From Faecalibacterium sp. I4-3-84 (GTDB lineage: Bacteria > Bacillota > Clostridia > Oscillospirales > Ruminococcaceae): 64,000 nucleotides of DNA. Location of the stretch: the NCBI RefSeq assembly GCF_023347255.1, contig NZ_CP094466.1, forward strand, positions 3,038,001 through 3,102,000, given 5' to 3'. Of this stretch, positions 6,576 to 21,541 are shown piece after piece (the first letter of the stretch is position 1; each line of letters begins with the position of its first letter). The position numbers were made by a program, and so were the translations under genes. The notes beneath the pieces were generated by a model that was not told where the DNA came from, ran no database searches, and saw only the letters and a list, made by a program, of their open reading frames with translations.

Positions 6576-6578
6576 GGC

Positions 6579-7563: not shown

Positions 7564-7579
7564 GAGGTGGGAACGACCT

Positions 7580-8134
7580 ATGGATGAAGCAACAAGAATC
7601 TCGCTGAAAGACCAGTTCAACAGCCTTTTGGTACGGGCTATTGAGGGTAGGCGCGGCGGTATGGCACTGATGCGGGTGCTGGAAGAACTGGACTTTTACA
7701 ATTCCCCGGCCAGCGCGAAGCATCACCTGAATGTCCCCGGCGGTCTGGTGCTGCATTCTCTCAATGTGGCAAGAGCTGCCCTGGAATTGTGCGACAAGAT
7801 GCCGCAGTTTGCAAAATGCAATAAGGGCGCAGTCTTGACCGCCGCGTTACTCCATGACGTTTGCAAGGCTGGGCAGTACATCAAAAAGCCGGATGGCAGT
7901 TACCGTTATGAAGATAGTCACTTGATGGGACACGGTGAAGCATCCGTCAGCATTATCAAAGACTGGATTTTCTTGACCGACACGGAAGCCCTGGCAATCA
8001 GGTGGCACATGGGAGCATATAGCGGAGAGCAGGACTGGGGAACGCTCAGCAAAGTATACGACCGCTGCCCGGAAGCCCTGTGCCTGCACATGGCTGACAT
8101 GATCGCAACGCACATCATGGAGGTAGAAGAGTGA
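7580..8134 (+). CDS. HD-domain phosphohydrolase-like protein
   Basis: The 184-residue protein has a likely metal-binding HD arrangement: HHLNVPGGLVLHSLNVA, then LLHDVCK (the HD doublet), GHGEASVSI and IRWHMG, spaced as in HD hydrolases. HD proteins of this kind in phages cleave nucleotides or regulate nucleotide pools; the substrate here is unknown. The ATG at 7580 was chosen over upstream in-frame codons because it lies just past the previous stop, with GAGAGG ahead. Its last bases overlap the next gene (GTGA). Confidence 0.75.
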   Translation: MDEATRISLKDQFNSLLVRAIEGRRGGMALMRVLEELDFYNSPASAKHHLNVPGGLVLHSLNVARAALELCDKMPQFAKCNKGAVLTAALLHDVCKAGQYIKKPDGSYRYEDSHLMGHGEASVSIIKDWIFLTDTEALAIRWHMGAYSGEQDWGTLSKVYDRCPEALCLHMADMIATHIMEVEE

Positions 8135-8640
8135 GCAGAGGCACCGCCTACTATGATCTTCCGAATGGTGAGCGAATAGAACTGCCGACAACCATGCCGG
8201 ATGTTGAGGAAGTGCCGGGACCCCTATGTGATGGAAAATTTGAATTGCCAGAAGCCGTAAAAGAAATGTTCAAGTGGATGGATGAAACATTCGGAACATG
8301 GGAAAGCGACTTCAGCAGTTTCAAAATCTGGATGAAATTGCGGAAAAACTTCAATCCACCGGTGCGCTGGGAAGCGGTGCAGGACAAGCGTCGAAACCCA
8401 AAGCCTTTGGGCCGAAACATCTATTTATATAAAGCAAGGAAGATCAAGAGCTTGGCAAGAAGTACACATACCAGAGTATCCCTGCACAAGGGAAAACAAA
8501 AGGGTACTGAAGAACAGTGCAAGCACACATTCAAGATAACCACAGCCCGGTGCGCGCCTTGCAGTGGTTACAACGTGGAGTGCGAGCACTACGAGAAAAA
8601 CAATACCGCTGATACAAAGCATGGTTCTTCTCAACCGTGA
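8131..8640 (+). CDS. Hypothetical phage protein
   Basis: This 169-residue product uses a GTG start overlapping the previous stop. It has an acidic N-terminal half (residues 1-60) and a basic, Lys/Arg-rich C-terminal half with CAPC and CEHYEKN, possibly a metal site. No family was recognised. It ends the first early gene cluster, with a terminator 4 bases after the stop. Confidence 0.5.
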   Translation: MSRGTAYYDLPNGERIELPTTMPDVEEVPGPLCDGKFELPEAVKEMFKWMDETFGTWESDFSSFKIWMKLRKNFNPPVRWEAVQDKRRNPKPLGRNIYLYKARKIKSLARSTHTRVSLHKGKQKGTEEQCKHTFKITTARCAPCSGYNVECEHYEKNNTADTKHGSSQP

Positions 8641-8643
8641 AAT

Positions 8644-8679
8644 AAGCAGCCCTGCACCGCAGAAGCGGGGCTGCTTTTA
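8644..8679 (+). terminator. Rho-independent terminator
   Basis: The inverted repeat AAGCAGCCC / GGGCTGCTT is followed by TTAT directly after the stop of the preceding gene. The T tail is short. Confidence 0.7.
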
Positions 8680-9117
8680 TATGGCGCATGGCGCTTTTTC
8701 TAGGCATTGAGCGCTGCAAGCAGGGCCGGACCCTGTATGCGCCGAGTTGAGTTTTCCATGGAAGACGGTACGGTCAGGAAATCAGCCGTCCGGCATAGCG
8801 GAATGGTGCTGTACAGCAGCGTCCTCCTTTCCGTTCAAGCCCGGTGAAAGACCGGGCTGCCATTTCCGCGAAAGACGCACCCGCATGGAGCTGACGGGAA
8901 TGGGTGCGCCGCAGCATGAGCGCAGAAATGCCCTGTTTGATCCGCCCAGGACAAAAGCGGTAGGCCACTGCAACGGCCGCCCTGCCCGGTACTCTCTTGC
9001 CGGGCAGGATTGATATGCGGACGCATAATGGATGAACCTGCTTCTGACCTAATCCCCCATGAGCAGGAGTACCAGTTCGATGCTGGTCGTCCGTGCAAGA
9101 AAAAGTGAGGAAAGCGA
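8680..9117. ncRNA. Structured intergenic region with three strong hairpins, candidate ncRNA or leader
   Basis: No convincing gene lies in these 440 bases. There are three GC-rich stem-loops in a row: AGCCCGGT-GAAAG-ACCGGGCT (about 8848-8868), CGCACCC...GGGTGCG (about 8875-8910), and CCTGCCCGG...CCGGGCAGG (about 8981-9008). The series sits between a terminator and the cytosine methyltransferase gene, so it could be a structured leader or a small RNA gene. No known riboswitch was recognised. Confidence 0.4.
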
Positions 9118-9118
9118 A

Positions 9119-9256
9119 ATGAAACTTGAATGTCTGACACCGGAATTTCCGCAAGGTGCAAGAGTTTACAGCGTGGATGGTGTGGCACCCTCACTGCTGA
9201 ACAGTGCATCGGCTATGAGATCGCAGGCGATTCTGGTCAGCGGGGGGGCAGAATGA
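9119..9256 (+). CDS. Upstream segment of cytosine methyltransferase gene, cut off at a G7 tract
   Basis: Starting at ATG 9119 (AGGAAAG upstream), 45 codons read to a stop at 9254-9256, just after seven consecutive G residues (9242-9248). The segment ARVYSVDGVAPSLLNSASA looks like the repeated target-recognition-type modules (V-Y-D-G-A-P-T-L) found in phage cytosine-5 methyltransferases, including the gene that follows. Eight, or five, G residues would join it in frame to that gene. This suggests a slippage switch or a homopolymer sequencing error. Confidence 0.55.
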   Translation: MKLECLTPEFPQGARVYSVDGVAPSLLNSASAMRSQAILVSGGAE

Positions 9257-11040
9257 AAATCTGTGAAAGCGGGCCGGTAATTTGCAGAGCATCCGGTCAG
9301 GCATCGGCGGACACACTGAACGAAACTTGCCCATGCCTAACGTGCGATCATGAAGCGCCTATCGTGGCCGGGGCGTACTGTATGGCTGGAAATTTCGTTG
9401 ACCGGAATACCAATCAGAACGGATGCGGAGTAAGAGAAAACGCTTCGTTCACACTGAACACGGTGGACCGGCACGCCGTTGCCTACGATGCAAGACATCA
9501 CTGTCTTGGTGGAGAGGTCAGCGGAACACTTCAGGCAAAGGGAGAAGGAGGATGGAGTTTGAACTACATAAATCCGGTGCTCCAACCGCTGCCTGAAAAT
9601 ACGGTCGGCATCGACCTCTACAACGGAGCCGTTATTGGAAACACTGCGGCTACTCTCACGAAGAAAAATGATGGCACATCAAGCGGCCCGGAAGTTGCCC
9701 AAAGAAAAACGCCGGACTGGATCGTGCGCAGACTGATTCCGATGGAGTGTGGCAGACTGCAAGGCTTCCCGGACGGATGGGCAGAAATTGAACCACTGAC
9801 CGACTTGCGGGAACTGCCGTTCTGGCGTGAGGTCTACACAAAGGACTGCGAGATCAAGGGGAAAAAGCCGAACCGGAAGATGATGCAGGCAGACAGCGAA
9901 GAAGGCAGGCGTGCCCTGATGCGCTGGCATGATGGCCTGCACAGCAGGGCGGCAGAGTACGCAATGTGGGGCAACGGAATGGCGCTACCAAACGCATTGT
10001 TCTTTGTAAAGAACGCGTTCCGCGAACTGGGAAAGCCGCCCGGAGAAATAAAGCTGGGAAGCCTGTTCGATGGAAGCGGAACAATGCCGCTGTGCGCCGC
10101 AATGTGCGGCGGGCATCCGGTCTGGGCAAGCGAGGTAGAGCCGTACCCCATTGCTGTTACAAAGACGCATCTGCCGAACATGAAGCATCTTGGAAGCGTT
10201 ACGGACATCAAGGGCTTTCTGATTGAACCGGTTGACATCATAACGTTCGGAAGCCCATGTCAGGACTTGAGCATTGCAGGAAAACGTGCCGGACTTAACG
10301 GTGCCAAATCTGGATTGTTCTGGGAGGCAATACGCATTATCTGGGAAATGCTGCTGGCGACCGGCGGAAAATATCCACGGTTCGTCATCTGGGAAAATGT
10401 GCCCGGTGCCCTGTCATCGAACAAAGGAAAGGATTTTGAAGTTGTCCTCAACGAATTACTACACCTCAGAGAGTTTGCCGGAGGTAGAGCAGATCAGTCT
10501 ATTCTCCAACATGGCAAGTGGGGGGGCTTCGCAAACTACGGAGCTGTTGCCTATCGAATTGTCAATGCTCAATGGTGGGGAATCCCCCAGCGCCGGCGCA
10601 GAGTATATGCTGTCTGCGATACTCGTAGAGAATCCGCCGGAGTGGTCGTTTTTGAGCGAAAAGGCACTGAATGGAATTTTGAACCGTGCATCCCGCAGGG
10701 GGAAGAAGTTACAGGACTTACTACTGACTGCTATTCATGGCATGATCGAATGGTGGCAACAAAACCCTGCGGGGGGGGGAGGCAGCGGGAAGCCTACACA
10801 ATGAAGATCCGCAGCGGATGTGACGGCGGAGGAAAGGGACCGCTTGTCCAAGAAGAACTTTCGGCAACATTGGCAACGCACCAAGATCAGACGCTATTTG
10901 AGTTAAGAAATACGGTGCTGAATGACCAGGGCGGCGGTTTCATGGAAGTTACGCATGGGATGACCGGAACACTCCGAGCACAAGAGCATGGGCACGCACC
11001 AATCACATTCGACAAAACAGAAGGGAACGAAAAGACGTGA
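9253..11040 (+). CDS. DNA cytosine-5 methyltransferase, circularly permuted motif order
   Basis: This is a 595-residue reading frame from ATG 9253. Conserved motifs appear in the order IX/X first (RRLIPMECGRLQGFPDGW near 9728-9781 and WGNGMALPNALF near 9967-10002), then I (LFDGSGTMPLCAAM near 10063), IV (GSPCQDLSIAGKRAGL near 10252, catalytic Cys), VI (WENVPG near 10390) and VIII (GIPQRRRRVYAV near 10580). Normal enzymes place IX and X at the C-terminus. The C-terminal 150 residues look like a recognition region (GGGKGPLVQ, SATLATHQDQTLF, TLRAQEHGH). Two further G tracts (10520-10526, 10771-10779) lie in frame inside the gene. It would methylate cytosine C5; the site is unknown. The true start may be 9119. 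Confidence 0.85.
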   Translation: MKICESGPVICRASGQASADTLNETCPCLTCDHEAPIVAGAYCMAGNFVDRNTNQNGCGVRENASFTLNTVDRHAVAYDARHHCLGGEVSGTLQAKGEGGWSLNYINPVLQPLPENTVGIDLYNGAVIGNTAATLTKKNDGTSSGPEVAQRKTPDWIVRRLIPMECGRLQGFPDGWAEIEPLTDLRELPFWREVYTKDCEIKGKKPNRKMMQADSEEGRRALMRWHDGLHSRAAEYAMWGNGMALPNALFFVKNAFRELGKPPGEIKLGSLFDGSGTMPLCAAMCGGHPVWASEVEPYPIAVTKTHLPNMKHLGSVTDIKGFLIEPVDIITFGSPCQDLSIAGKRAGLNGAKSGLFWEAIRIIWEMLLATGGKYPRFVIWENVPGALSSNKGKDFEVVLNELLHLREFAGGRADQSILQHGKWGGFANYGAVAYRIVNAQWWGIPQRRRRVYAVCDTRRESAGVVVFERKGTEWNFEPCIPQGEEVTGLTTDCYSWHDRMVATKPCGGGRQREAYTMKIRSGCDGGGKGPLVQEELSATLATHQDQTLFELRNTVLNDQGGGFMEVTHGMTGTLRAQEHGHAPITFDKTEGNEKT

Positions 11041-11585
11041 AGGTAGAAACGATAAGCAAGGCAATCATTGCGGCGCTTCTTGCGGCGGAACTTGCAAGCT
11101 GCACGAAAGCCGCTCTGATGCAGAACCGGATCACGGATCTGGAAACACAGAGGGATATCTACAAGTCCATGTACGAGGACTGGAAAGGCGCGGCAGGCGA
11201 AGTTGCCGGGTATGCAGATACCTTGCGGGATTCTCTGAAAGCACGGGACCGGCTGGATGGGAAGCTGCTGGTTGAAGATGCTGGAGATTTTCTCTGTACA
11301 GCCTATTGCACCGAAAAGCGAGAGCACATCTGCGGAACAGGAACCGGGATCACAGCCAGCGGTGCCCCCGTGGAAGCTGATGTGACGGTGGCGGCAGACC
11401 CGGACGTGTTCCCGTTTGGGACTGTCCTCTATATCGAGGATGTAGGAGTGCGGATCGTTCAGGATACCGGAGCCAGCGTAAAAGGAAAGCATCTGGATGT
11501 TGCCGTTTCCGGCAGCCACAAAGATGCACTGAACTGGGATGGCTACGGACAGCACAGAGTTTGGATCATCCAGGAGGCGGAGTAA
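11037..11585 (+). CDS. 3D-domain (MltA-like) secreted or membrane protein
   Basis: A GTG start overlaps the previous stop. The 182-residue product has a hydrophobic N-terminus ending in LASC (possible lipobox-like signal), a coiled-coil stretch (residues about 27-75), and a C-terminal 3D domain with CTAYC, GTGITASG, VAADPDVFPFGT and VQDTGASVKGKHLDV, where the three conserved Asp residues are visible. 3D domains form the double-psi barrel of lytic transglycosylase-like proteins (MltA, YocH). A role in cell-wall modification is possible, although it lies far from the lysis genes. Confidence 0.75.
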   Translation: MKVETISKAIIAALLAAELASCTKAALMQNRITDLETQRDIYKSMYEDWKGAAGEVAGYADTLRDSLKARDRLDGKLLVEDAGDFLCTAYCTEKREHICGTGTGITASGAPVEADVTVAADPDVFPFGTVLYIEDVGVRIVQDTGASVKGKHLDVAVSGSHKDALNWDGYGQHRVWIIQEAE

Positions 11586-11587
11586 AA

Positions 11588-11944
11588 ATGCAGAAAGCAA
11601 TCGCCATTGATTTTGATGGATGCTTATGCACGAATGAGTACCCGAACATCGGAAAGCCGATTCTGCACATTATTGACGAAGCCAAGAAACAGCAAGCTAA
11701 GGGCGCCGGGCTGATCCTCTGGACTTGCAGACAAGGAAAAGAATTGGAAGAAGCCGTTGCCGCCTGCGAAAGGTGGGGACTGCATTTTGATGCAGTCAAC
11801 GAGAACTTGCCTTCCTGGAAAGAGTTCTTCAGGAACGACACCAGAAAAGTGGGGGCAAACGAATACTGGGATGATCGGGCAGTGATTGCAGATCAGACTT
11901 GCATTTTGCGAAGCGATAAATGCTTCAAGGAGAATCAGAAATGA
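11588..11944 (+). CDS. HAD-like phosphatase (small phage type)
   Basis: The 118-residue protein begins with IAIDFDGCLC, the HAD motif I (DxDG), followed by LILWTCRQGKEL as motif II (Thr), with a late acidic ANEYWDDRAV as motif III/IV-like. The length fits the short HAD hydrolases encoded by many phages. It probably dephosphorylates a small substrate; the specificity is unknown. ATG 11588 follows GGAGGCGGAG. The gene end overlaps the next ATG. Confidence 0.75.
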   Translation: MQKAIAIDFDGCLCTNEYPNIGKPILHIIDEAKKQQAKGAGLILWTCRQGKELEEAVAACERWGLHFDAVNENLPSWKEFFRNDTRKVGANEYWDDRAVIADQTCILRSDKCFKENQK

Positions 11945-12497
11945 AACTGCCGGAAAAGAAGTACGCGGTGATCTACGCAGATCCGCCGTGGAGTTACCGC
12001 CAGCATGGAACTGGACCAAAAAGCCGCGGGAACGCAGCGCAGCACTACCACACAATGACCGTTGAGGACATTTGCGCATTGCCCGTTCGCCAGCTTGCGG
12101 GGGGGGGCAGGGATGCGCGCTGTTCATGTGGGCGACATTCCCAACCATCCCAGATGCGCTGAAGGTTATGGACGCATGGGGCTTTACATACAAAACGGCG
12201 GCATTCGTCTGGATCAAAAAATACAAGTCGGGCGGAAACTTTTATGGAATGGGTGCTTACACTCGTGCAAATGCAGAGGTTTGCTTGTTGGGAGTGACGC
12301 CGGGATTCAAGGCAAAAGCATTGGTCAAAAGCCATACAGTGCACCAGGTAATCGAATCCCCTATACAAGCGCACAGCGTAAAACCGGATGAAGCCAGACA
12401 GCGTATTGTGGAATTGCTGGGCGATGTGCCGAGAATCGAACTGTTTGCCCGCCAGCACGCAACCGGATGGGATGCGTGGGGAGATGAACTTGAGTAA
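11941..12497 (+). pseudogene. MT-A70-type adenine methyltransferase gene, frame broken at a G9 tract (phase-off or disrupted)
   Basis: The first frame (from ATG 11941) gives KYAVIYADPPWSY, with the DPPW catalytic motif of MT-A70 adenine N6-methyltransferases, and runs into nine G residues at 12099-12107, stopping at 12162. The rest of the protein (CALFMWATFPTIPDALKVM and onward to ATGWDAWGDELE) continues without a break in another frame. A tract of seven or ten G residues would restore a protein of about 185 residues. The sequence outside the tract is undamaged, so I favour a reversible poly-G switch or a homopolymer read error over an old pseudogene. Confidence 0.8.
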
Positions 12498-12510
12498 TTG
12501 GAGGAAAAGT

Positions 12511-12636
12511 ATGGAAGGACTTGTAAAAACGCTGGGCATTCTGATGGCTTTGGCGGCTGTGGCACTGTGGGCAGCATTGATTTTCTTTGTGCCGGCCGCA
12601 CTGATTAAATTCCTTTGGCTGTATCTGGTGGCATGA
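12511..12636 (+). CDS. Very small membrane protein
   Basis: This 41-residue product has one long hydrophobic segment (residues about 7-38) and starts at ATG 12511 with GGAGG nine bases upstream. Its stop overlaps the next ATG (ATGA). Function unknown. Confidence 0.55.
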   Translation: MEGLVKTLGILMALAAVALWAALIFFVPAALIKFLWLYLVA

Positions 12637-12836
12637 TGGACAATGAAACGCTGACACGGATTCTGTCCGAACGATTTATAACGTGTAATGAGCAGGCCTG
12701 AAAAGGCAGTAAGGGATGCACGAAAGAGTGCAAACTCTATGAGCTGCAAGAACCGGGTATGACCTGCCGGGACAGCGTCCTTCTCCACGCAGAGGAAGCA
12801 AAGAAAATTTTGAAAATAAGGTCGCACAACTCCTGA
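12633..12836 (+). pseudogene. Small Cys-containing protein gene with an in-frame TGA
   Basis: From ATG 12633 the frame encodes MMDNETLTRILSERFITCNE then meets TGA at 12699-12701. It continues open (KGSKGCTKECKLYELQEPGM and onward) to a stop at 12834, giving 67 codons in all. The cysteine spacing runs across the stop, so this looks like one small metal-binding-type protein interrupted by a single-base change or read by stop-codon recoding. A terminator follows. Confidence 0.5.
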
Positions 12837-12840
12837 CACA

Positions 12841-12866
12841 GGCCGCCCGCTGCGGCGGCCTTTTTT
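12841..12866 (+). terminator. Rho-independent terminator
   Basis: The inverted repeat GGCCGCC / GGCGGCC with a 6-base loop is followed by six T residues. Confidence 0.88.
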
Positions 12867-12935
12867 GTGAGCATGGGAACAGGCCCGGCCCGGTTCAACT
12901 CCGGGATTGCCCAAAACTGAAAGGAGAACACACCG

Positions 12936-13124
12936 ATGCAGAGGTACTACATTTTGCTGAAAGCGACCGGTGCTGGTGGGTGGCCGGGTTGGCTGCCGTA
13001 CCGGCTGGATGCGGACAGCGCCGAACAGGCTGTTGAAAAAGCCAAGGAGCAGGCCGAGAATCATTACCCGGAGTACGAAAAGTTTGAAGTTCAGGCTATC
13101 GAAATTGAAAGGAGAAGCAAATGA
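12936..13124 (+). CDS. Small hypothetical phage protein
   Basis: This 62-residue product starts at ATG 12936 (AAGGAG 15 bases upstream). YYILLKATGAGGW looks like a beta-strand start, and a charged helical middle (AEQAVEKAKEQAENH) follows. The stop overlaps the next ATG. No family was recognised. Confidence 0.55.
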   Translation: MQRYYILLKATGAGGWPGWLPYRLDADSAEQAVEKAKEQAENHYPEYEKFEVQAIEIERRSK

Positions 13125-13750
13125 AGCTGGCAGCAATCGCAAAGCTCATTAAGGCAGATGGGTACTGTAAACTCTACAAAGTGTTCTATGACGATTGCAG
13201 AACCTATGATTTGTACATTGGAACCAAAACGGCAATCTTCCCGCTGACCGGATTTCCGAAGGCACAAAATGAAAGTGAGTTGGCAACCCTCCTGGGCATC
13301 AGCAAAAAGGAATGGGCAGACATCGAGTTTGATAATGACTGCCCGGATGATCTCCATCACATCGAAGGGATGGATTTGGACGACACGGCAGACGGAGAAA
13401 TGGACTGCGTGACCGGAAGAATCGGTATCCGGTACTGCGGGTGTGAACTGGTTCCAATGATCGAGCCTGTTTCGGGAACGGTCGGTTTTGTGGATGCAAA
13501 GCAGATCATGCCGGTGGCGGACGAGATCCGAAAGAGCGGATATTTCAAATACTGCGCCCGAAAGATGGCAAGTGGTAGCCGCTACTATGTTATCAAAGAC
13601 GGTATGGTGGTGCGCGGTGCGGTACTTCCTGTAAAGCTGGAACCTTTGGCAAAGTCTGGGTTGCGTGAGCTTGCAGATATGGTGAAAAAGACAAAGGATG
13701 TTGCCGATGTAGAGGACTTGAGCGAGCAGGAGGACAAAAACGATGCGTAA
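13121..13750 (+). CDS. Hypothetical phage protein
   Basis: This 209-residue cytoplasmic-looking acidic protein starts at ATG 13121 behind AAAGGAG. The C-terminus (residues 170-209) is highly charged. No family was recognised. It is translationally coupled to its neighbours by short overlaps on both sides, in the early-gene run leading to the VR2 gene. Confidence 0.55.
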   Translation: MKLAAIAKLIKADGYCKLYKVFYDDCRTYDLYIGTKTAIFPLTGFPKAQNESELATLLGISKKEWADIEFDNDCPDDLHHIEGMDLDDTADGEMDCVTGRIGIRYCGCELVPMIEPVSGTVGFVDAKQIMPVADEIRKSGYFKYCARKMASGSRYYVIKDGMVVRGAVLPVKLEPLAKSGLRELADMVKKTKDVADVEDLSEQEDKNDA

Positions 13751-14012
13751 GACTTTGGAACTGCTGGCTTTGTCCACCTGCACTGCCGCGCTGTGCGTAA
13801 CACTGACTGGGTGTGAAGCAGTCAAGGGCACAGCAAGCGGTGAAAAACCGGTCAAGACGGTATATGTTTACCTGCCGGACGGCACTTTACTGGACAAAGG
13901 ACGGGCGGACAAGGTAAGTTCGTTTGCACACAATGATCGTATCGTGAAAGTCACGATTGACGGGAAAACATACGAGACCAGCTGGGCCAATGTGGTTTTA
14001 GTGGAGGAATAA
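13743..14012 (+). CDS. Small phage lipoprotein A
   Basis: The 89-residue protein has a signal peptide and lipobox LTGC (Cys at about residue 24), then a small domain containing LPDGTLL, VKVTIDGKTYETSW and NVVLVEE. These segments recur in the lipoprotein at 15469-15711 (MPDGTVI, VKINGTTYLAHSS, NVVLWH), so the two are paralogues. It is expected on the outer face of the cell membrane. Its stop is 2 bases from the start of the DGR target gene, so the two are probably co-translated. A surface lipoprotein made by a prophage could serve in superinfection exclusion; that is inference. Confidence 0.75.
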   Translation: MRKTLELLALSTCTAALCVTLTGCEAVKGTASGEKPVKTVYVYLPDGTLLDKGRADKVSSFAHNDRIVKVTIDGKTYETSWANVVLVEE

Positions 14013-14014
14013 CG

Positions 14015-14662
14015 ATGAGCAAGATTTTGAAAAGTGTAACCTTGGGTGATGTGAAAAATGGTGGCATCTTCAGAGCGCTGGGCAAGGAGTTTGTGAAGCT
14101 GGATGCGGACGAACACGGCTGCCTTGTACTGGCAAAGGACATTTGGACGAGAATGCCGTTCCGCGACGGCGACGACCCGGAATGCCCCAACGATCTGCGC
14201 CGGAGCGAGATTATGCCATATCTGGGTAACTGCCTGGCAGAGTTTACAAAGAACGGCACTCCGCTGAGTACATTCATTCCGCTCAGAATCGACCTTCAGG
14301 ACACGACCGGCCAGAACGAATACGGAATCTTTGAAGTGAGGATTGGCCTGTTGACCCTGCGCGGGTACGGAAAATATTGGCGGCTGATCCCAAAGGTAGA
14401 TGCGCCGTGGTGGTTGGCAACGCCTTACGGTACGCCGAATTGCTCTCCGTACACCTACTACACCGACTACGTCTGGTACGTCAATTCGGATGGCTCCAGC
14501 AGCGGCGACTGGTACAACTACTCCTATGGTGTTCGCCCCGTTTTGTGCTTTTCCTCTGCACTCTTGGTCTCTGTCGAGGACGAAAGAGAGGCCGGGTTTT
14601 CGCTTTCCGATGTTCCGCTGGATGACCTGCTGGCCGAAATCAAGAGCCGGACGGAGGGCTAA
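14015..14662 (+). CDS. DGR target protein 2 (C-type-lectin-like) carrying variable repeat VR2
   Basis: The 215-residue protein begins at ATG 14015. Its C-terminal part (from PWWLATP through SDG to YGVRP, residues about 130-180) has the lectin-like fold signature of DGR target proteins. Bases 14442-14540 align without gaps to the template repeat at 52862-52960, with 12 differences, all at template adenines. The variable residues include Tyr, Ser, Gly, Asp and Asn. There is no signal peptide. It sits in the early region between two related lipoproteins, not with tail genes, so it is probably not a receptor-binding tail protein. A binding protein acting inside or at the surface of the lysogen is possible. 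Confidence 0.9.
   Translation: MSKILKSVTLGDVKNGGIFRALGKEFVKLDADEHGCLVLAKDIWTRMPFRDGDDPECPNDLRRSEIMPYLGNCLAEFTKNGTPLSTFIPLRIDLQDTTGQNEYGIFEVRIGLLTLRGYGKYWRLIPKVDAPWWLATPYGTPNCSPYTYYTDYVWYVNSDGSSSGDWYNYSYGVRPVLCFSSALLVSVEDEREAGFSLSDVPLDDLLAEIKSRTEG
14442..14540 (+). repeat. DGR variable repeat VR2 (remote)
   Basis: These 99 bp match the template repeat (52862-52960) at all positions except 12, every one an A in the template: eight first-position or second-position changes to T or G in single AAC codons plus doubly changed codons such as AAC to GGC. The 3' end TATGGTGTTCGCCCCG is identical and would be the initiation-of-homology end. It lies in the same reading frame as VR1. Confidence 0.95.
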
Positions 14663-14664
14663 TC

Positions 14665-15009
14665 ATGGATGCGGTAAAAAATGACGTGAAGCGGCTGGTC
14701 AAAATCGAGTTGGCCGCTGCCAATAAGAAGTTTCGGATGTTTGCTGGGCCACATGAGGGCGCGGGAATCATCCAAGAAGAAGTCGTGGAAGCTGTGCAGG
14801 AAATGAACGGTCTGCGTCAGGAACTCAATGCAATGTGGATGAATGTTTACTCCAACAATCCGCAGATTTCCACGAAGGGTGTATATGACCGGGCTGTTGC
14901 TCTGGCCGTGGAAGCTATTCAGACAGCAGCGATGGCCCGGAAGTTTGAGCGCAGCCAGCGCCGTCACTGGCCGGGGGCAAAGGATCCGCACTATGGTGAA
15001 GAAGAATGA
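14665..15009 (+). CDS. Hypothetical phage protein (MazG-like helical pattern possible)
   Basis: This 114-residue product starts at ATG 14665, 2 bases after the VR2 gene. EGAGIIQEEVVEAVQEMNGL resembles the helical E-x-x-E-x-x-E arrangement of MazG-like pyrophosphohydrolases, but the match is weak. It overlaps the next gene by 17 bases. Confidence 0.5.
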   Translation: MDAVKNDVKRLVKIELAAANKKFRMFAGPHEGAGIIQEEVVEAVQEMNGLRQELNAMWMNVYSNNPQISTKGVYDRAVALAVEAIQTAAMARKFERSQRRHWPGAKDPHYGEEE

Positions 15010-15472
15010 CGCACCTACCGAAATCGAGACCATCACGCTGACCATGAGCCGCCCAGTGGCGGAGGCTGTGCAGACTGCCTGCGAGTGGTATCTGCGGCTG
15101 CACATGGGACAGTTTTGGGATCTGGCAGAAGACTTGTGCTTTGCAAAATTCTACTCGGACGCGGAAAACAATGCGTTTCAGAGCGAGGAACAGCGTAAAA
15201 ACGCTTTTAATGTTGCGATAGGCCGCAGAAATACCATGCTGCTAGAAATGGAACGGCTGTACAGCAGATGCGTTCTCCCGGCCCCGACCTCAGACGTAAT
15301 GAAGGTGCCGTACCGGGCAGAACAGGTATGGCTTGCCATTCGCCACGCCCTGGCATGGCATGACAAGCCGGAGGGCGATCCATGGAATGTGTGCTTTGAT
15401 AAGCCGCTGAACCGCAGCGACCAGCCGCAGCCGGTAGTAAAACTCAATGAAAAGCAGGAGGCAAAGAAATGA
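14993..15472 (+). CDS. Hypothetical phage protein
   Basis: The 159-residue product starts at ATG 14993 (in-frame codons further upstream lie inside the previous gene), and GCACTATGG context gives only a weak ribosome binding site. It is a soluble, mixed alpha/beta-looking protein with two Cys. No family was recognised. The stop overlaps the start of lipoprotein B. Confidence 0.5.
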   Translation: MVKKNDAPTEIETITLTMSRPVAEAVQTACEWYLRLHMGQFWDLAEDLCFAKFYSDAENNAFQSEEQRKNAFNVAIGRRNTMLLEMERLYSRCVLPAPTSDVMKVPYRAEQVWLAIRHALAWHDKPEGDPWNVCFDKPLNRSDQPQPVVKLNEKQEAKK

Positions 15473-15711
15473 GAAAGATTTTTATGGTGGGAGCATCTGC
15501 GGCGGCAAGCGTTTTGCTGATGACGGGATGCAACAAGCAGGTAATTGATTTGACCTACGAATATTCGCAGGCACAGATTAAAATGCCGGATGGAACCGTA
15601 ATTGAGGGCAAGGTGGATAGCTGGAACGATTATGAAGGCGACCAGTTACAGGTCAAAATTAACGGAACAACATATCTGGCCCATTCGTCAAACGTGGTCC
15701 TCTGGCACTGA
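15469..15711 (+). CDS. Small phage lipoprotein B
   Basis: The 80-residue lipoprotein has signal peptide and lipobox LMTGC (Cys at about residue 21). Its mature part (KMPDGTVIEGKVDSW, VKINGTTYLAHSSNVVLW) is paralogous to lipoprotein A at 13743-14012. Together they frame the VR2-containing gene. It is predicted to be membrane-anchored and outside-facing. Function unknown. Confidence 0.7.
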   Translation: MRKIFMVGASAAASVLLMTGCNKQVIDLTYEYSQAQIKMPDGTVIEGKVDSWNDYEGDQLQVKINGTTYLAHSSNVVLWH

Positions 15712-15794
15712 GCAAGGGCAAAGTTCGGGATCGAGAGGAAGAAGTTGCACACGAATCTTGAAGATTTTGAGGTTATGAAGTTGGAGAAAGTGCA

Positions 15795-16010
15795 ATGAGA
15801 CAGAACGGAGCAATGTTTATCTGCAACCGTTGCCGGAAGCAGGTATTTGCAGAACGGTTTGATGATGGCCGGTTTGACCAGAAGGCACTGGATGGGTGGG
15901 CGCTTGAAACGAGGGACTTCTTTGGAGTTGGTGACTTGTGCCCGGAGTGCTTCAAGGTGTACCGCGAAACGATGGATCGTTTTTATGAAGGCGGCCGACA
16001 TGGAGGATAA
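15795..16010 (+). CDS. Small zinc-ribbon-like protein
   Basis: The 71-residue protein has two Cys pairs, CNRC (near residue 10) and CPEC (near residue 49), the spacing of a zinc ribbon. The ATG at 15795 follows GGAGAAAG. It overlaps the next gene by about 10 bases. DNA or RNA binding is possible. Confidence 0.6.
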   Translation: MRQNGAMFICNRCRKQVFAERFDDGRFDQKALDGWALETRDFFGVGDLCPECFKVYRETMDRFYEGGRHGG

Positions 16011-16266
16011 GACAGATAACTCCCAGAAAAAGGAAGAACACGATTCTTTGAAACCTGCAAGGGATGCCATTGCAACTGCTATGCGGGCCGCCCAATTTGC
16101 GAAAGCGATCGGCACCCCACTGCCGAAACCACTTAAATGGCAGCGTGAATTCTATGACGCTACCGGTGTGTTTCCATACGGCTGGTATGAGTGCCCGGTA
16201 TGCGGGTACAGGACAGATTGGGAACCGCACGCCTGTCCGATTTGCCACACACTGCTAGAACCGTGA
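16000..16266 (+). CDS. Small protein with C-terminal zinc ribbon
   Basis: This 88-residue product from ATG 16000 (an ATG at 15985 is also in frame) ends in CPVCGYRTDWEPHACPIC, a clear four-Cys zinc ribbon. The N-terminal half is Lys/Asp-rich and probably helical. Function unknown; such proteins are common in early phage operons. Confidence 0.6.
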   Translation: MEDKTDNSQKKEEHDSLKPARDAIATAMRAAQFAKAIGTPLPKPLKWQREFYDATGVFPYGWYECPVCGYRTDWEPHACPICHTLLEP

Positions 16267-16281
16267 CGAAAGGAACACAGG

Positions 16282-16455
16282 ATGATGGAACCTGAAAGAA
16301 CCTGCTGCACCTGCCGCTGGCATGAGGGCTACACCTGGGTATGCTTCAACGGCAATTCACCGAACCGTGCCGACTTCACTGACCCGGAGGACACCTGCGA
16401 GTGCTGGGAAGTCAGAACGGAAGAAAACAGCATCGGTGACTACGAAGTAAACTAA
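16282..16455 (+). CDS. Small Cys-rich protein
   Basis: From ATG 16282, 57 codons encode a protein with TCCTCRWHEG and CECWEV, six cysteines in all, typical of tiny phage metal-binding proteins. AAAGGAAC lies about 12 bases upstream. Function unknown. Confidence 0.55.
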   Translation: MMEPERTCCTCRWHEGYTWVCFNGNSPNRADFTDPEDTCECWEVRTEENSIGDYEVN

Positions 16456-16477
16456 TCAAGCTCTAATCAAGAATTAA

Positions 16478-16526
16478 GCAAGCCCGTCGTTAAATTGCCG
16501 CCCTGACGAGGCGGCAAGGGGCTTGT
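16478..16526. other. Nested double-stem structure upstream of the HUH replication gene
   Basis: An outer stem CAAGCCC / GGGCTTG encloses an inner stem TTGCCGCC / GGCGGCAA with a 7-base loop. There is no T tail, so it is a poor terminator. Its place 215 bases upstream of an HUH endonuclease gene makes it a candidate nicking origin. The rest of 16527-16741 holds no gene I can see, only the ribosome binding site GGAAGGAGGAAG at 16723-16734. Confidence 0.4.
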
Positions 16527-16741
16527 ATGTGTAACTTAATCTAGCGACCACAGAAGAACACAAGCCGGGGAAAGCGGGGGTCAAGGGGGAGAAAACGAGG
16601 GCGGGTCTGTAGGGCTTGATGGAATAGGAAACTTAGAAAGACCTGCCCGGCGTTGTATCCCCCTTGCCCTGCGAAGCCGTGTGTGTTTGGTCCACAGAAA
16701 AGAAAATCCCAGTAGAACTTTGCGGAAGGAGGAAGTGAACG

Positions 16742-17569
16742 GTGCGGGCATGGTACATTCGGGAGCAGAAACACATTCTCGGAACATCCGATTATGCAGA
16801 AGTGGATCTCTTTGAAACAACGGACAAGGAACACACCGCGAGCACCCGCCGCAAAAGAGAGCTGGCAACCTCCATTGCGCAGCAGAAGTATAACGACATG
16901 ATAGCAAGGCGGTATTTCTGCCAGCTGGCCTATACGAATTTCGGGGAAAGCGACTGGGCAGTCACGTTTACATACGACCACAACCACCAGCCAGCACCCG
17001 GAGATTTTGACCAAGTAGACCGGGACTGGACGAATTTTACTCGCCGCTTGAAGCGCTTCTGCAAAAAGATGGGTCGAGAAGCATCCAAGTGGATGCAGGT
17101 TGCAGAGTACAGCGTGATGGATGAGGACGGGAAAGTTACCGGCAGACACCACCATCATGCGATCCTGCAAGGCAATCTGACATGGCAGGAGATCAAGGAC
17201 TTGTGGCGGGACAGCACCGGGCGGCCGATGGGGCTTGTGAAAGTTGAACCTATCGATCTGACCTGTTCCAGCTTTGAACGCTTGACAACCTACATGACGA
17301 AAGCCCGCGCCCGTATCCGGCGCTGGCGACAGAGCCAAGGGCTGCAAAAGCCGAAAACCCCGCGTCCGAACGACACCAGATGGAGCCGCAAGCGCTTTGA
17401 CGAAGCGTTTGCTTTGCCGGATGATCGTGAATACTGGGAGAAAAAATACCCCGGTTATACCCTGCGCGAGTGCGAACAGCACATCACGGGAAACAACACC
17501 AAGCACCTGATCGTGAAACTGAAAAAGAAGCCGGACACCCGGTGGAAGAACAGGAGGAACCAGCCATGA
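16742..17569 (+). CDS. HUH-type rolling-circle replication initiator-like protein
   Basis: The 275-residue product has WAVTFTYD (strand 1), GRHHHHAILQG (the metal-binding HUH motif, about residues 135-145) and LTTYMTKARARIRR (candidate catalytic Tyr about residue 186 with Lys four places on). This is the order found in Rep/G2P-like nicking enzymes. Such enzymes nick one strand and stay attached through Tyr to start rolling-circle synthesis. The GTG start has a strong AAGGAGGAAG site. It is followed by a nuclease gene with a 4-base overlap. For a large tailed phage this implies an unusual replication mode. Confidence 0.8.
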   Translation: MRAWYIREQKHILGTSDYAEVDLFETTDKEHTASTRRKRELATSIAQQKYNDMIARRYFCQLAYTNFGESDWAVTFTYDHNHQPAPGDFDQVDRDWTNFTRRLKRFCKKMGREASKWMQVAEYSVMDEDGKVTGRHHHHAILQGNLTWQEIKDLWRDSTGRPMGLVKVEPIDLTCSSFERLTTYMTKARARIRRWRQSQGLQKPKTPRPNDTRWSRKRFDEAFALPDDREYWEKKYPGYTLRECEQHITGNNTKHLIVKLKKKPDTRWKNRRNQP

Positions 17570-18150
17570 GCGCCAGACTGGAACTGGACGACCTGCCGCC
17601 GCGCTACCGTGCGCAGGCGGAAAAGCAGCTTGCACAGAGAAGGTGCGGGGGCAAAGCTGCACCTGCATCGTTGGAAGCCGCTGTGAATGCCGCCAGATCG
17701 ACCGGACACGAGTTTGACAGCCGGGGCGAGTATGACTACTACATGGGAACTGTTCTGCCCAAAGTCCAGAGTGGCGAGGTCGTGAAGGTAGAGCTGCACC
17801 GCAGGTTTACTATGCTGCCGGAAAAAGAATACGGCAATGTGAAGCTCCCGGCGGCGCACTATACCCCGGATTTTGTGCTGACCTATGCTGATGGCACGGT
17901 TGAGGTGGTGGAAGTGAAAAGCAAATTCACCCGGCGGCAGCAGCGTGATTACATCCACCGCCGCCGTATGTTTATCGATCTTGTGGCAGAACCGCAGCAC
18001 TGGCGGTTTATTGAGCATATCACGCCAGATACGGCGGAAGAAATCAGAAAGTGGAAGCGCCTGGCCGAACAGGCGGGAAAGGATTCATCATGGGAAAAAG
18101 CAGGGCAAGGATGCCAGCATTCTACCGGCAGAGCATCCAGAATGCAGTGA
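17566..18150 (+). CDS. DUF1064 family nuclease-like protein
   Basis: The 194-residue protein contains FDSRGEYDYYMGTVLPKVQS, then YTPDFVLTYADGTVEVVEVK, giving the E...D...ExK arrangement of PD-(D/E)xK nucleases; DUF1064 proteins are phage resolvase or endonuclease-like enzymes. It probably resolves branched phage DNA or processes replication intermediates. The ATG at 17566 has CAGGAGG upstream. Its 3' end overlaps the next gene by 61 bases. Confidence 0.8.
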   Translation: MSARLELDDLPPRYRAQAEKQLAQRRCGGKAAPASLEAAVNAARSTGHEFDSRGEYDYYMGTVLPKVQSGEVVKVELHRRFTMLPEKEYGNVKLPAAHYTPDFVLTYADGTVEVVEVKSKFTRRQQRDYIHRRRMFIDLVAEPQHWRFIEHITPDTAEEIRKWKRLAEQAGKDSSWEKAGQGCQHSTGRASRMQ

Positions 18151-18731
18151 ATCAGCAAATCAACATCGGCAAGTCGAAGCACCGCACGACGCTGAACCGT
18201 GAGGCAATCGGGCAGGTCGTTTCGTACTGCGCAGTTGCCGCGGCACATGATCTCTGGGACTGGGGCGAGAAAGAATCTACGCTCCTGACCTTGAAGATGA
18301 ACAATGCTGCATCCAGGTATATCATGGATCACGACAAGTACGGTGCACCGGAAGCCCTCAAGCGGCTGGAAGCACGCACTGCCCACCTGATGCCGGAAGA
18401 ATTTTGGCTCCCGGCGGGTGGTCTGGTAGGCTCTGAAAAAAAGCTGCGTGTTCTGGCTGAACGCCGGGACGCGGCAAAGATGATCGTTCGTTTCTTTGTG
18501 GAATCGCTGGAAGAAATGGAGTACACCCCTGAACAAATTGAGACCGTGAAGGAAGAAATCAAGAAAAATTACCAGCAGTTCCTCGGCTGGGTGGACGATG
18601 GCGGAGAAGAAGTTGCCTATGATCGTCTGCGCCGTGTCATTGAGGACATTTACGGCGTGGGTGCCATGGTTGAGCGCGTCAAGGGTGAAGAACCCGTTTT
18701 CGAAGAACCCCTTTTCAAGAAAGATTTTTGA
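18090..18731 (+). CDS. Hypothetical phage protein
   Basis: This 213-residue mostly helical protein begins at ATG 18090 inside the end of the DUF1064 gene. GNAVNQ- and ESLEEMEYTPEQIETVKEE-like stretches suggest long helices. No family was recognised. It lies in the replication cluster. Confidence 0.5.
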   Translation: MGKSRARMPAFYRQSIQNAVNQQINIGKSKHRTTLNREAIGQVVSYCAVAAAHDLWDWGEKESTLLTLKMNNAASRYIMDHDKYGAPEALKRLEARTAHLMPEEFWLPAGGLVGSEKKLRVLAERRDAAKMIVRFFVESLEEMEYTPEQIETVKEEIKKNYQQFLGWVDDGGEEVAYDRLRRVIEDIYGVGAMVERVKGEEPVFEEPLFKKDF

Positions 18732-18751
18732 TTTTTTGGGAGGACTGAGCA

Positions 18752-19279
18752 GTGAAAGTACACGAGGCGGAGGCAATCTTGAAATATTATGCGGACATCC
18801 CGCAGCGGATAGAGATCATCCGCCGTCAGTGTACCGCACTGAGCGATGAAGTGGACCCCATGCAGGGCATGGGCACCGATGGAATGCCCCGCGGCGGAAC
18901 ACCTGGGGACAGCACGGCGGCGATGGCCTGCCGGATGGATGAACTGGGCATTGGAGACCAACTGCGTCAGCTGGAACGGCAGCGGGCTGTGTTGCTGGAA
19001 GATCAGAACATTATCCGAGGACAAATGAACCGGCTGGACAGTGGCCACAATCTGATTTTAACGGAGTTCTACATCAGCCACAAAAAATGGCACGAAGTAC
19101 AGCAGAAAGTTCCATACAGTGTGCAGCACTTGAAGTACCTGCGAAACGTCGCTCTTGCACAGCTGGGAAGGAACCTGGAACGGCTCCCGGAGTGCGCCGC
19201 TTTATTATCGCGTGCGTTAAACACGCGCGAGGAACGCTGCCGGGCGGATGCCTGGGCGGAGGGCGATATTATCTTATAG
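18752..19279 (+). CDS. ArpU/RinA-like phage transcription regulator (tentative)
   Basis: The 175-residue product starts at GTG 18752 (GGGAGGACTGAG upstream). It has an N-terminal helix (EAILKYYADIPQRIEIIRRQ), a central helix, and a C-terminal segment reading ILTEFYISHKKWHEVQQKV then SVQHLKYLRNVALAQLGR. That pattern resembles the sigma-region-4-like helix-turn-helix of phage late-gene regulators (ArpU, RinA, DUF1492). I infer that it activates the late operon; the distance to the late genes (about 9 kb) is consistent but unproven. Confidence 0.55.
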   Translation: MKVHEAEAILKYYADIPQRIEIIRRQCTALSDEVDPMQGMGTDGMPRGGTPGDSTAAMACRMDELGIGDQLRQLERQRAVLLEDQNIIRGQMNRLDSGHNLILTEFYISHKKWHEVQQKVPYSVQHLKYLRNVALAQLGRNLERLPECAALLSRALNTREERCRADAWAEGDIIL

Positions 19280-19437
19280 GCAAGGCGGCCTGCGGAACAT
19301 CATGTGCAGGCGCTTCCGCAAAATCGTGTCCATCATCCGCAGAAAAACAAACACGACTACCCCGAAAATCTGAAAACAGGCATAGAAATAACCCGGCGGG
19401 CAGTTGGCCTACCGGGTTTTGTGCAAAGGAGAGCAAA

Positions 19438-19680
19438 ATGAAAATCAAAATCGAGCTTGAAGGAGACATGATAAGCCTGCGGGAATATGCCGTCAGAACC
19501 ATCACGAAAGAAATCGTAAAGACCGGGATCAAAGAGAAACAGACGTGGTATAACGAGGAAGCAATCCGGCACGAGTTTGACGATGCTGGGGTGGGCAGGC
19601 TGGTCAGGTGTTGGCTAAAAAATGTTTGGCCGCTTCCACAGCTACGTCTTTTGCGATGGAGGTTATCACATCGACGCTGA
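19438..19680 (+). CDS. Small hypothetical protein, convergent with DUF2513 gene
   Basis: This 80-residue product starts at ATG 19438 with AAGGAGAG eight bases upstream. Residues 1-50 look protein-like (KIKIELEGDMISLREYAVR). The last 25 residues lie on top of the opposite-strand DUF2513 gene and are basic and Leu-rich, so the natural end may be altered. A terminator-like hairpin (ACCCGG...CCGGGT, 19390-19421) lies upstream. Confidence 0.5.
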   Translation: MKIKIELEGDMISLREYAVRTITKEIVKTGIKEKQTWYNEEAIRHEFDDAGVGRLVRCWLKNVWPLPQLRLLRWRLSHRR

Positions 19681-20047
19681 GAGCGCCGGCTTTTTTGGCA
19701 ACGCTTTTGACCTTCGACCAATTTGTGTCAGACCGGATATTTTCAAGAAAGTTATGCCCGGCGGGGGTCAATTCCCGGACATTGACACGGTATTGCTCCG
19801 GGTGAGAGCCAGCACAAAGGGCGATAAGCCCAGATTCGGCACAGTATTTCACGGAATAAAGAATGTCGTCATTGTCAAATCTGGATTCAAGCTCGATTTG
19901 ATAAGCGGGCGGATCAGTAGGATCTTCGCAAAGCATATCAAGAATATCGGCCCTTGCATAGCGAATGAAGTAGCAATAGTGGTCAAAATCCGTGTGTTCT
20001 TCCACGCAGAGCATAACAGCGCGGACGCAATCCATGTTTAACTTCAT
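19604..20047 (-). CDS. DUF2513 domain protein
   Basis: The 147-residue protein has the DUF2513 pattern: MKLNMDCVRAVMLCVEEHTD, LYSVKYCAESGLIAL, VRELTPAGHNFLENIRSDTN, then a helical tail with VDVITSIAKDV. I chose the ATG at 20047 because GAAAGGA lies 12 bases upstream, rather than the one at 20056, which sits on that site. It is the last gene of the minus-strand accessory operon. Function unknown; DUF2513 genes are common in prophages. Confidence 0.8.
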   Translation of the reverse strand: MKLNMDCVRAVMLCVEEHTDFDHYCYFIRYARADILDMLCEDPTDPPAYQIELESRFDNDDILYSVKYCAESGLIALCAGSHPEQYRVNVRELTPAGHNFLENIRSDTNWSKVKSVAKKAGALSVDVITSIAKDVAVEAAKHFLANT

Positions 20048-20070
20048 ACAAACCATCCTTTCAACACCAT

Positions 20071-20104
20071 AAGCCCGTCAGGTCATCGACCTGGCGGGCT
20101 TTTT
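20071..20104 (+). terminator. Strong hairpin, terminator for plus-strand transcription
   Basis: A 13-bp stem (AGCCCGTCAGGTC / GACCTGGCGGGCT) is followed by TTTTT on the plus strand. It would stop the early plus-strand operon from running into the convergent minus-strand genes. Confidence 0.75.
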
Positions 20105-20116
20105 GGATTTCGTGAT

Positions 20117-20506
20117 TTACTTTTCGTGTGGCGGCTGGTCATCCGGCGGAGCGTTGCGCTTGAAGATGATCTGCGGTTCGTTCGGATCCCGGCCTTCCTC
20201 TTTGGCGTTCTGGGCGATTTCGTCCATCAGGCCGACAGGAAAACCGTTTTCGTCGAGCGGCCCATCGTAACCGGTGAAGTCAACGACGTTCACGCAGGGC
20301 GGTTCGGGGATGGTTTTGTAGTATCTGCCGTCCTCATAGTTCTGATCCGTGACCCGGTTCCAGTAACCAATGTCTCCGTGCTGCTCCTGGGCAGCTTCCA
20401 TCGCTTCCCGTGCCTGTTCTTCAGTCAATCCGTCGAACAAGAGCCGGGAGCCATCAGCAAAGGCAGCGACCAGCCGCCAAGGGGCAAAAAATTCAGCTTC
20501 GTCCAT
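20117..20506 (-). CDS. Hypothetical acidic phage protein
   Basis: This 129-residue product starts at ATG 20506 (MDEAEFF, with GGAG upstream); the frame stays open further upstream but that part overlaps CACGAAA motifs and an AT-rich gap. The protein is acidic, with WRLVAAFADGSRLLFDGLTE suggesting a small beta/alpha domain. It ends in HEK, encoded by a CACGAAA copy. No family was recognised. Confidence 0.55.
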   Translation of the reverse strand: MDEAEFFAPWRLVAAFADGSRLLFDGLTEEQAREAMEAAQEQHGDIGYWNRVTDQNYEDGRYYKTIPEPPCVNVVDFTGYDGPLDENGFPVGLMDEIAQNAKEEGRDPNEPQIIFKRNAPPDDQPPHEK

Positions 20507-20650
20507 GAAAATGCTCCATTTCGTGCGATTTTCGTGAATGAGTTGAAGTTTTGAGCACGGAAAAGTCCAATTCATTCACAAAAAAGTGAATTTCGTGTAC
20601 GAAAAATCATAATCTGCAAACAAGATATGATATTTTGAACACAAAACTTT
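20507..20650. other. AT-rich gap with short inverted repeats and three CACGAAA copies
   Basis: This 144-bp stretch is much more AT-rich than its surroundings. It holds three CACGAAA motifs and a small inverted repeat TTCAC-N6-GTGAA (about 20574-20590). It could be a promoter region for the downstream minus-strand genes or an origin-like unwinding element. No clear -10/-35 pair could be fixed. Confidence 0.35.
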
Positions 20651-21541
20651 CTATTTTGATTTCGTGGGGATGTACCCATTCAGGCAGCGATTGAAACCGC
20701 GTTTCGTGAGCGCGGCGGTGATCCGGTCATCCGGGAAGTAGAAAACAAGTTCGTTTTCGCTCAACAGACCAGACCCGGCGGGGTACTGAACACCGGAATA
20801 CCAATCCGTTTCCATGTCATACTTGCGGTGAAGATACTTGTAAACGTCCCTCTGGGCCTTGTCGAACACCTCAACAAAGGAGAAGGAAGCGCACGGCGGC
20901 AGTTCCGTTGCCAGCATGGGCACATTCCGCACCAGCCATTCCACGATCGCAGCCTTTGCGGCGTTTCGCTTGGGCTTGTCGTCCCGGTGGACTGCATTCA
21001 AAATCTGCACAACCAGCGGTTTGGGCAGATCGTTCAATACCTCTGCCAGCGGGTAAGGGTTTTCGTGCAGCAGGGGCGACGTGCGCAGCTCCGGCACGAG
21101 ATCCAGATCGTGACAGGTTACAGGCTTCTGGCGGTCGTCGATGCGCTCACTGGTGTAATACAGCATATCTTTGATTGCGTTCTGTGCCGCGTCGGAAAGC
21201 TGCTCCACCAGAGCAACACTGTCTGCAAAGCTGATTTGCGCCTCGTTTCGTTCGCCGGTGCTGCGGCCCGTCTTATAGGCTGCATCAATGATACCAAGCT
21301 CCATAGCCAGCCGGAAAATGTGCTTGCAGGGCTTTTTGCGCTTTACAAAATCGTTACAGGTGCAGCTTGCAAGGCTGGTCTGGTACGGCTCTTTACCGGA
21401 TCCATAGAAAACCCCGGTTTCGTGTTCCTTGTCCACGGAAAGCGGGCTGGTCTTGCTCTGCTGGGCGCTGGCAAGGCGCTTTTCTTCGTCAGTGTCTGCG
21501 GGATGCTCTGTCCAGGGGCCGAAGGCGGGAATCATAGTCAT
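20651..21541 (-). CDS. SWIM zinc finger domain protein
   Basis: The 296-residue protein contains CTCNDFVKRKKPCKHIFRLA (about residues 59-78), the CxCx(n)CxH motif of the SWIM zinc finger, a nucleic-acid or protein-binding module. The remainder is helical, and the C-terminus (LTKRGFNRCLNGYIPTKSK) looks like a small winged fold. The ATG at 21541 has AAAGGAGG upstream, immediately preceded by a CACGAAA copy. Function unknown. Confidence 0.75.
   Translation of the reverse strand: MTMIPAFGPWTEHPADTDEEKRLASAQQSKTSPLSVDKEHETGVFYGSGKEPYQTSLASCTCNDFVKRKKPCKHIFRLAMELGIIDAAYKTGRSTGERNEAQISFADSVALVEQLSDAAQNAIKDMLYYTSERIDDRQKPVTCHDLDLVPELRTSPLLHENPYPLAEVLNDLPKPLVVQILNAVHRDDKPKRNAAKAAIVEWLVRNVPMLATELPPCASFSFVEVFDKAQRDVYKYLHRKYDMETDWYSGVQYPAGSGLLSENELVFYFPDDRITAALTKRGFNRCLNGYIPTKSK

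Follow-up and report, generated by a model that had tools for sequence, protein, structure and literature searches.

A diversity-generating retroelement of a prophage appears to rewrite a remote second target in the early gene region

The diversity-generating retroelement (DGR) of the Bordetella phage BPP-1 combines a reverse transcriptase (RT), the accessory protein Avd and a template repeat (TR) with adenine-specific change in a single target, the tropism determinant Mtd. A hairpin follows the variable repeat (VR) in that system, a feature that is not known to be required of all DGRs. Other targets are tentaclins, proteins in which an N-terminal C-type lectin domain is followed by Ig-like domains. 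Phage DGRs have mainly been read as receptor-switching devices, and an early, apparently cytosolic target prompts the question of what a phage gains by diversifying it.

Second, distal DGR targets are already in print, one of them in a phage whose remote target protein is 80% identical to that described here. Two-target layouts are described for Lelie and CP11, the former having two variable regions and DUF6273 targets called 'large' and 'small' (Gulyaeva, 2024; PMC11792537), and for nd4 and nd12, in which a tentaclin is accompanied by a second distal target named target2 (Baykov et al., 2023; PMC10743442). A second, distal target is likewise described for the Quimbyvirus DGR (Benler, 2021; PMC8008677) and a distal second VR for four gut prophage species (a 2025 Nature paper; PMC12629997). 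An earlier note on the present DNA had considered a remote target in the early block of a prophage unusual, which was an overstatement in view of these systems and of the 13 phages in which we found the layout. What is added here is evidence of rewriting of the remote target, the breadth of this arrangement among phages, and the description of DGR cassettes whose only targets are early genes.

The stretch analysed (hereafter the window) comprises 64,000 nucleotides of a 3.12-Mb genome belonging to the same genus as its relative G016, and its features are collected in Table 1. The window element is a DGR, with an RT gene beside the TR, adenine-directed differences between the TR and its VRs, and an Avd gene. 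The copies of the 15-bp direct repeat that bounds the prophage (6208-6222 and 58712-58726) coincide with the points where similarity to the G016 prophage ends, the latter aligning, with gaps, over window positions 6215-20188 and 47101-58711 in the two stretches compared. The possibility that VR2 belongs to a separate mobile element beside the prophage was ruled out by this alignment and by the position of the bounding repeats outside both VRs. Insertion of the prophage may have been a transposition that left a long duplication of the target, and none of the genes tested was a site-specific integrase. At its right end the prophage carries an IS30-like (rve + HTH_38) transposase gene (57515-58567), and the G016 prophage is bounded by another repeat, of 16 bp (L076 5578-5593, L077 11587-11602). 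The start of the VR1 gene was set at the ATG at 54382, which follows AAGGAGG, while the profile scans were run from the longer start at 54271.

Table 1. Coordinates of the prophage, the DGR components and the genes surrounding the remote target in the window.
Feature	Position	Strand	Remarks
Prophage carrying VR2, TR, RT and VR1	6223..58711	.	Bounded by 15-bp direct repeat
Operon around VR2	13121..15711	+	Gene spacings -8, 2, 2, -167, -4 bp; phrog_24518, phrog_25385, transcription-regulator phrog_36225
VR2 (target2-type) gene, 215-aa DUF6273 / phrog_9958 protein	14015..14662	+	Profile matches
VR2, remote variable repeat, 99 bp	14442..14540	+	12 mismatches to TR, 12/12 at TR adenines
36 nt after VR2 Arg-Pro codons, candidate homing-recognition part	14540..14575	+	VR1/VR2 identity 0.72, TR/VR2 0.25
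Gene for a replication initiation protein, located after VR2	16742..17569	+	phrog_3584, E 1.8e-58
Avd accessory protein gene	52209..52808	+	phrog_3206 'Avd protein of DGR', E 1.9e-29
TR, template repeat	52842..52962	+	Between Avd and RT genes; 52862-52960 common to VR2
DGR reverse transcriptase gene	53132..54361	+	RVT_1, E 4.9e-19; phrog_1423, E 1.1e-122
VR1 gene, DUF6273 + Hoc-like C-terminal part (tentaclin-type layout)	54382..55641	+	DUF6273, E 2e-34; phrog_10993 Hoc-like, E 2.3e-140
VR1, local variable repeat, 121 bp	54870..54990	+	15 mismatches to TR, 15/15 at TR adenines
36 nt after VR1 Arg-Pro codons, counterpart of 14540-14575	54988..55023	+	VR1/VR2 identity 0.72

When VR2 was compared without gaps against both window strands (at least 60 of 99 positions identical), the matches were VR2 itself, 52862-52960 (87/99), 54890-54988 (79/99) and nothing else. 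With the TR as query, the complete 3.12-Mb genome gave three copies, namely TR, VR1 and VR2 (the last at E 7e-30), and no fourth at E 0.001. The earlier note had assigned all 12 differences between TR and VR2 to template adenines, and a recount reproduced this exactly, with six A>T and six A>G changes. The 99-bp TR contains 31 adenines, so that random placement would put 12 of 12 mismatches at A with a chance of (31/99)^12 = 9e-7; the mismatches between TR and VR1 are equally confined to template adenines. The shared reading frame, the identical 3' end and the separation of about 38 kb described in that note were also confirmed, as VR1 and VR2 are in the same frame, GGTGTTCGCCCCG is the 3' end common to TR, VR1 and VR2, and the distance from TR to VR2 is 38.3 kb. 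On its 5' side VR2 is shorter than VR1 (99 vs 121 bp).

Comparison with the G016 prophage indicates that VR2, too, undergoes the replacement from a TR that is expected of a DGR target. The VR2 genes of the two prophages differ at only 3 of 549 bases outside VR2 and at 17 of 99 inside it (Fisher p 3e-12). Twelve of these 17 differences fall at adenines common to both TRs, and the remaining five coincide exactly with the full set of positions where the window and G016 TRs disagree. The window VR2 has the letter of the window TR at 5/5 of these divergent sites, and the G016 VR2 has that of the G016 TR at 4/5, the fifth TR letter being an A that is now G in VR2. Toutatis, Lelie and IMG genome 649989951 are set apart from the window at the same five sites, and their VR2s track their own TRs. 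Because neither a relic nor a plain paralogue would mirror the TR sites in this manner, VR2 appears to have been overwritten from its own TR since the phages parted, and we hold its rewriting from the TR of its own phage to be nearly certain. Old paralogy as the origin of VR2 was excluded by the adenine-only differences together with the mirrored TR sites. The proposal that VR2 was written from the TR of the window is thus supported by G016, in which VR2 varies instead of being fixed and the sites not shared between the templates follow the TR.

Differences confined to the VR were also observed between related viral contigs, compared without a TR in hand. The contigs of the pairs L111/L113, L114/L116 and L104/L106 differ at 10 of 915 bp, 12 of 645 bp and 9 of 624 bp (plus a 3-base gap), respectively, all of these differences lying within the place of the VR (a span of 29-53 bp across the pairs), and in the pair L103/nd4, 13 of 21 differences occur within 51 of 702 bp. 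Among the other pairs less than 15% divergent, L097/L098, L107/L108 and L111/L112 are identical, L096/L109 ends before most of the VR, and the further pairs are more divergent throughout. Reads of Lelie in culture are reported to be without variation at the VRs (PMC11792537), as would be expected if VR2 were the relic of one old homing or recombination event and were no longer written. Such a relic is nonetheless highly improbable, given that the mirrored TR sites and the 3/549 differences outside VR2 speak for rewriting after the split from G016, that VR-confined differences recur in the three pairs above, and that both VRs are reported to vary across CP11-like genomes (n = 37; PMC11792537).

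By self-comparison of sequences, 13 phages were found to combine a TR and a VR1 with a remote VR2, namely those of the window and G016, Toutatis, Lelie, IMG 649989951 (two contigs, counted as one phage), G801, G982, G754, G050, L095, Brigit, nd4 and nd12, some of which are only about 30% alike in the VR2 protein. In these phages the share of TR adenines changed in VR2 (0.33-0.65) is similar to that in VR1 (0.19-0.68), and VR2 is the shorter repeat in 13 of 13. Pooled VR2 mismatches lie at A in 147 of 151 cases, partly by construction, since the repeat scan penalises non-adenine mismatches and requires 80-85% at A; the 12/12 of the window were not so selected. From these relatives, targeting of the early gene by the DGR seems both old and deliberate. 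The paper describing Toutatis and Brigit mentions one target in its accessible portion, and in the RefSeq record of Toutatis a gene annotated as 'DUF6273 domain-containing protein' (L087 2049-2201; NC_047915.1 49048-49200) really covers the TR. In G050, two equal-score matches to the VR2 protein (G050:C1 1043569 and 1606006) perhaps represent two related prophages.

Within the wider family the picture is mixed. The 24 GTDB genomes considered are the best-scoring from overlapping sets in which 3 of 31, 6 of 297, 89 of 391 and 13 of 394 genomes had a match; the remote layout was found in five and a local one in three, and no TR for the VR2-type gene was detected in the stretches searched of the 16 others. 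The 26 viral contigs with a VR2-type gene, some of them duplicates, include one with the remote and three with the local layout, and no TR was found in 22, often as the contig or stretch ends first. Templates on either strand were sought in all 24 genomes and in 23 of the contigs, the remaining three having already shown repeats. Either diversification is not universal in the VR2-type family or the searched stretches are too short. Besides, the scan of genome contigs for relatives returned one relative only, and no TR to pair with L008 was present on contig L052.

The genes of VR1 and VR2 are homologous around the VR, and VR2 could in principle be a bystander, i.e., a DUF6273 paralogue with the same homing site that is rewritten without benefit. 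The 16 of 24 best-scoring genomes in which no TR was found for the gene would agree with this, as would the nd4-like genomes, of which 39 of 54 have two targets and 15 of 54 have the tentaclin as their only target, so that target2 seems dispensable in that group (PMC10743442). We consider a bystander improbable, as VR2 is retained in 13 phages that represent several groups, some DGRs (G340, G758 and G623, described below) have no other kind of target, and the codon before Val-Trp encodes Tyr in 7/7 near-relative VR2s, at a diversifiable codon where the TR codes Asn, compared with F, Y, N, G and G in five VR1s. This Tyr is kept while flanking TR sites have been rewritten between the window and the other near relatives, which makes selection on the codon likely, though seven related sequences are few.

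A candidate recognition site was found downstream of the two targets. In nine of the 13 phages, with the window alone standing for five near relatives, the 36 nt after the VR are 0.75 identical between VR1 and VR2 within a phage, 0.58 between phages and 0.27 in comparison with the TR. Moreover, where downstream codons specify the same residue, the same codon is used in 54 of 66 cases within a phage vs 222 of 376 between phages. The shared stretch fits a recognition site 3' of the VR, and genome base composition could add to the likeness. No consistent hairpin structure was detected 3' of VR1 or VR2 in 12 stretches of six phages (z -1.4 to 1.0).

The VR2 protein aligns along its full length with phrog_9958 (residues 5-214 of 215, E 1.1e-71) and, in its C-terminal part, with DUF6273 (E 1.9e-5). 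It is a target2-type small DUF6273 protein, with the VR on the C-terminal side of DUF6273 and no Ig-like part, and it falls outside the definition of a tentaclin because it is devoid of the C-terminal part present in the VR1 protein. No membrane-like stretch was found (maximum 19-residue hydropathy 1.21; 0.60 near the N-terminus), a profile search recovered no virion anchor or Ig-like anchor domain, and no PADLOC defence model matched at E 0.01. The predicted model (pLDDT 87) matches viral DUF6273 models at E 4e-9 and, weakly, C-type lectin chains among solved structures (E about 0.7-1.6). The best solved-structure match was 9qa6 (E 8e-4), and the search of solved structures brought up nothing more than an IgA peptidase and a weakly matching bacterioferritin.

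The VR2 gene is separated by 2 bp from each of its neighbours and belongs to a run with the regulator-like phrog_36225 gene; the -167 spacing in Table 1 results from giving 14843-15472 its longest possible start, and the family match of that gene sets in at residue 51. The VR2 gene sits between DNA methyltransferase genes (6579-7298, 9130-11040 and 12072-12497) and the replication initiator, and the terminase small-subunit gene starts after it, at 28411. It precedes the terminase in all six maps that could be placed (window, Toutatis, Brigit, G801, G982 and G754), and in nd4, whose record has a different starting point, it is on the side where the replication genes are annotated. The map position thus bears out the earlier assignment of the gene to the early region instead of the tail genes. 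Judging from this location, its expression would be early, and its product is probably an early, non-virion protein. A 541-aa gene on the reverse strand in the early half of the prophage (22212-23837) also has methyltransferase-like matches, and a similar stretch occurs in Lelie.

In three genomes (G758, G340 and G623) a complete DGR was found in such a setting, with two tandem VR2-type genes followed by Avd, TR and RT. A Cro/CI-type regulator gene is 1.5-2.2 kb away and an integrase is nearby; the Avd label was assigned by test in G758 and by position in G340 and G623. A replication-initiation gene, the terminase and a P22-type portal follow the cassette in G758, and an HNH nuclease, a Lin1244-type gene, the terminase and the portal follow it in G340. 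In G623 no structural gene was detected among five proteins scanned, nor by tblastn with phage structural proteins over 20 of 68 kb. The TR of G340 as query does not recover any of the four VRs known in G758 and G623, and each genome was hence searched with its own TR at E 0.01, which gave exactly three copies in each (the TR and two early VRs); the G623 genome is 88% complete, and a further VR may be missing from its assembly. The viral contig L099 is organised likewise and also has genes for an integrase, a methyltransferase and replication initiation, and L100 carries the same repeats. Published descriptions of early-placed DGRs with only early targets were not found among the matches listed in searches of open-licence texts.

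In some relatives the VR2-type domain is joined to other domains. An open frame leads from DUF3310 into it in L104, L117 and nd12, DUF3310 also precedes it in frame in L106 and L091, and in L118 a Lar restriction-alleviation domain (30.8 bits, cut-off 28.6) runs in frame into it; DUF3310 in the target2 of nd12 had been noted previously (PMC10743442). An AAAGGAG motif, resembling a ribosome-binding site, stands before an internal ATG at this junction, and DUF3310 or Lar and the VR2-type domain may therefore be separate products. The near relatives L117 and L118 have swapped their N-terminal part at the same junction.

These findings bear on whether target2 belongs to the virion, for instance as a receptor binder comparable to Mtd and diversified for adsorption, its early position being accidental, as has been hypothesized for nd4 and nd12 (Baykov et al., PMC10743442). 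A possible C-type-lectin-like fold as in Mtd and the aromatic-rich variants would suit such a role, which we nevertheless regard as unlikely, since the VR2 protein is without an anchor domain, its gene precedes the terminase in the six placeable maps, and in-frame junctions with DUF3310 or Lar domains occur in some relatives. Furthermore, the only TR copies in G340, G758 and G623 are two tandem early genes with their own DGR near a repressor-like gene, which makes an Mtd-like receptor binder less likely; these early-only cassettes argue against a receptor binder and favour an intracellular binder.

In the mechanism that we propose, reverse transcription of the TR RNA would be error-prone at adenines, and the resulting cDNA would replace VR2 as it does VR1. 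The outcome of this replacement is read from the sequence and the biochemical steps are borrowed by analogy from the BPP-1 DGR. Recognition would probably involve the common 3' end and about 30 bp downstream, which occur in both targets and are absent from the TR. The target would be a single-domain C-type-lectin-like protein, probably cytosolic and made with the early genes, whose diversified face would most likely bind a fast-changing intracellular partner, be it a defence protein or some other factor of the host or a protein of a competing phage. One retroelement could thereby retune both the particle and an early protein. Taken as a whole, this explanation, in which the DGR at 52.2-55.6 kb has VR2 as a genuine second target with an early, cytosolic, intracellular-binder role, is the one toward which we lean, with some reservation. 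The narrower proposal that the VR2 product acts as an intracellular binder against defence or host factors is put forward tentatively, and guilt by association with the methyltransferase genes nearby hints weakly at a counter-defence role. It is likewise conceivable, if short of probable, that the target2 family supplies the hypervariable component of a phage system acting inside the cell, with temperate phages either sharing the tail-region DGR or carrying a complete early-region DGR, and with changing early cytosolic binders directed at host defences or rival phages and not at receptor range.

Compared with BPP-1, the window DGR shares the RT, Avd, TR and adenine-specific change, but it has two targets instead of one, and the hairpin known after the VR of BPP-1 was not seen in the six phages compared. 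The Quimbyvirus DGR is alike in layout and differs in that the phage infects Bacteroides and the target lies on the opposite strand (PMC8008677). The nd4 and nd12 phages are alike in having a VR1 gene composed of DUF6273 and further domains, a VR2 gene encoding a small DUF6273 protein and a shorter VR2, but their VR2 proteins are only 28% and 31% identical to that of the window. The Faecalibacterium phage Lelie (PP479942) combines the 80%-identical VR2 protein with the same TR-RT-VR1 order and a remote VR2, while its TR differs at 5/99 sites and its record annotates a resolvase, the gene found at the right end of the window prophage being the IS30-like transposase. An early target that is actively rewritten, kept in distant phages and the sole target in some makes the idea of hypervariable early proteins testable, and Lelie, the sister phage, is reported to be cultured and inducible (PMC11792537).
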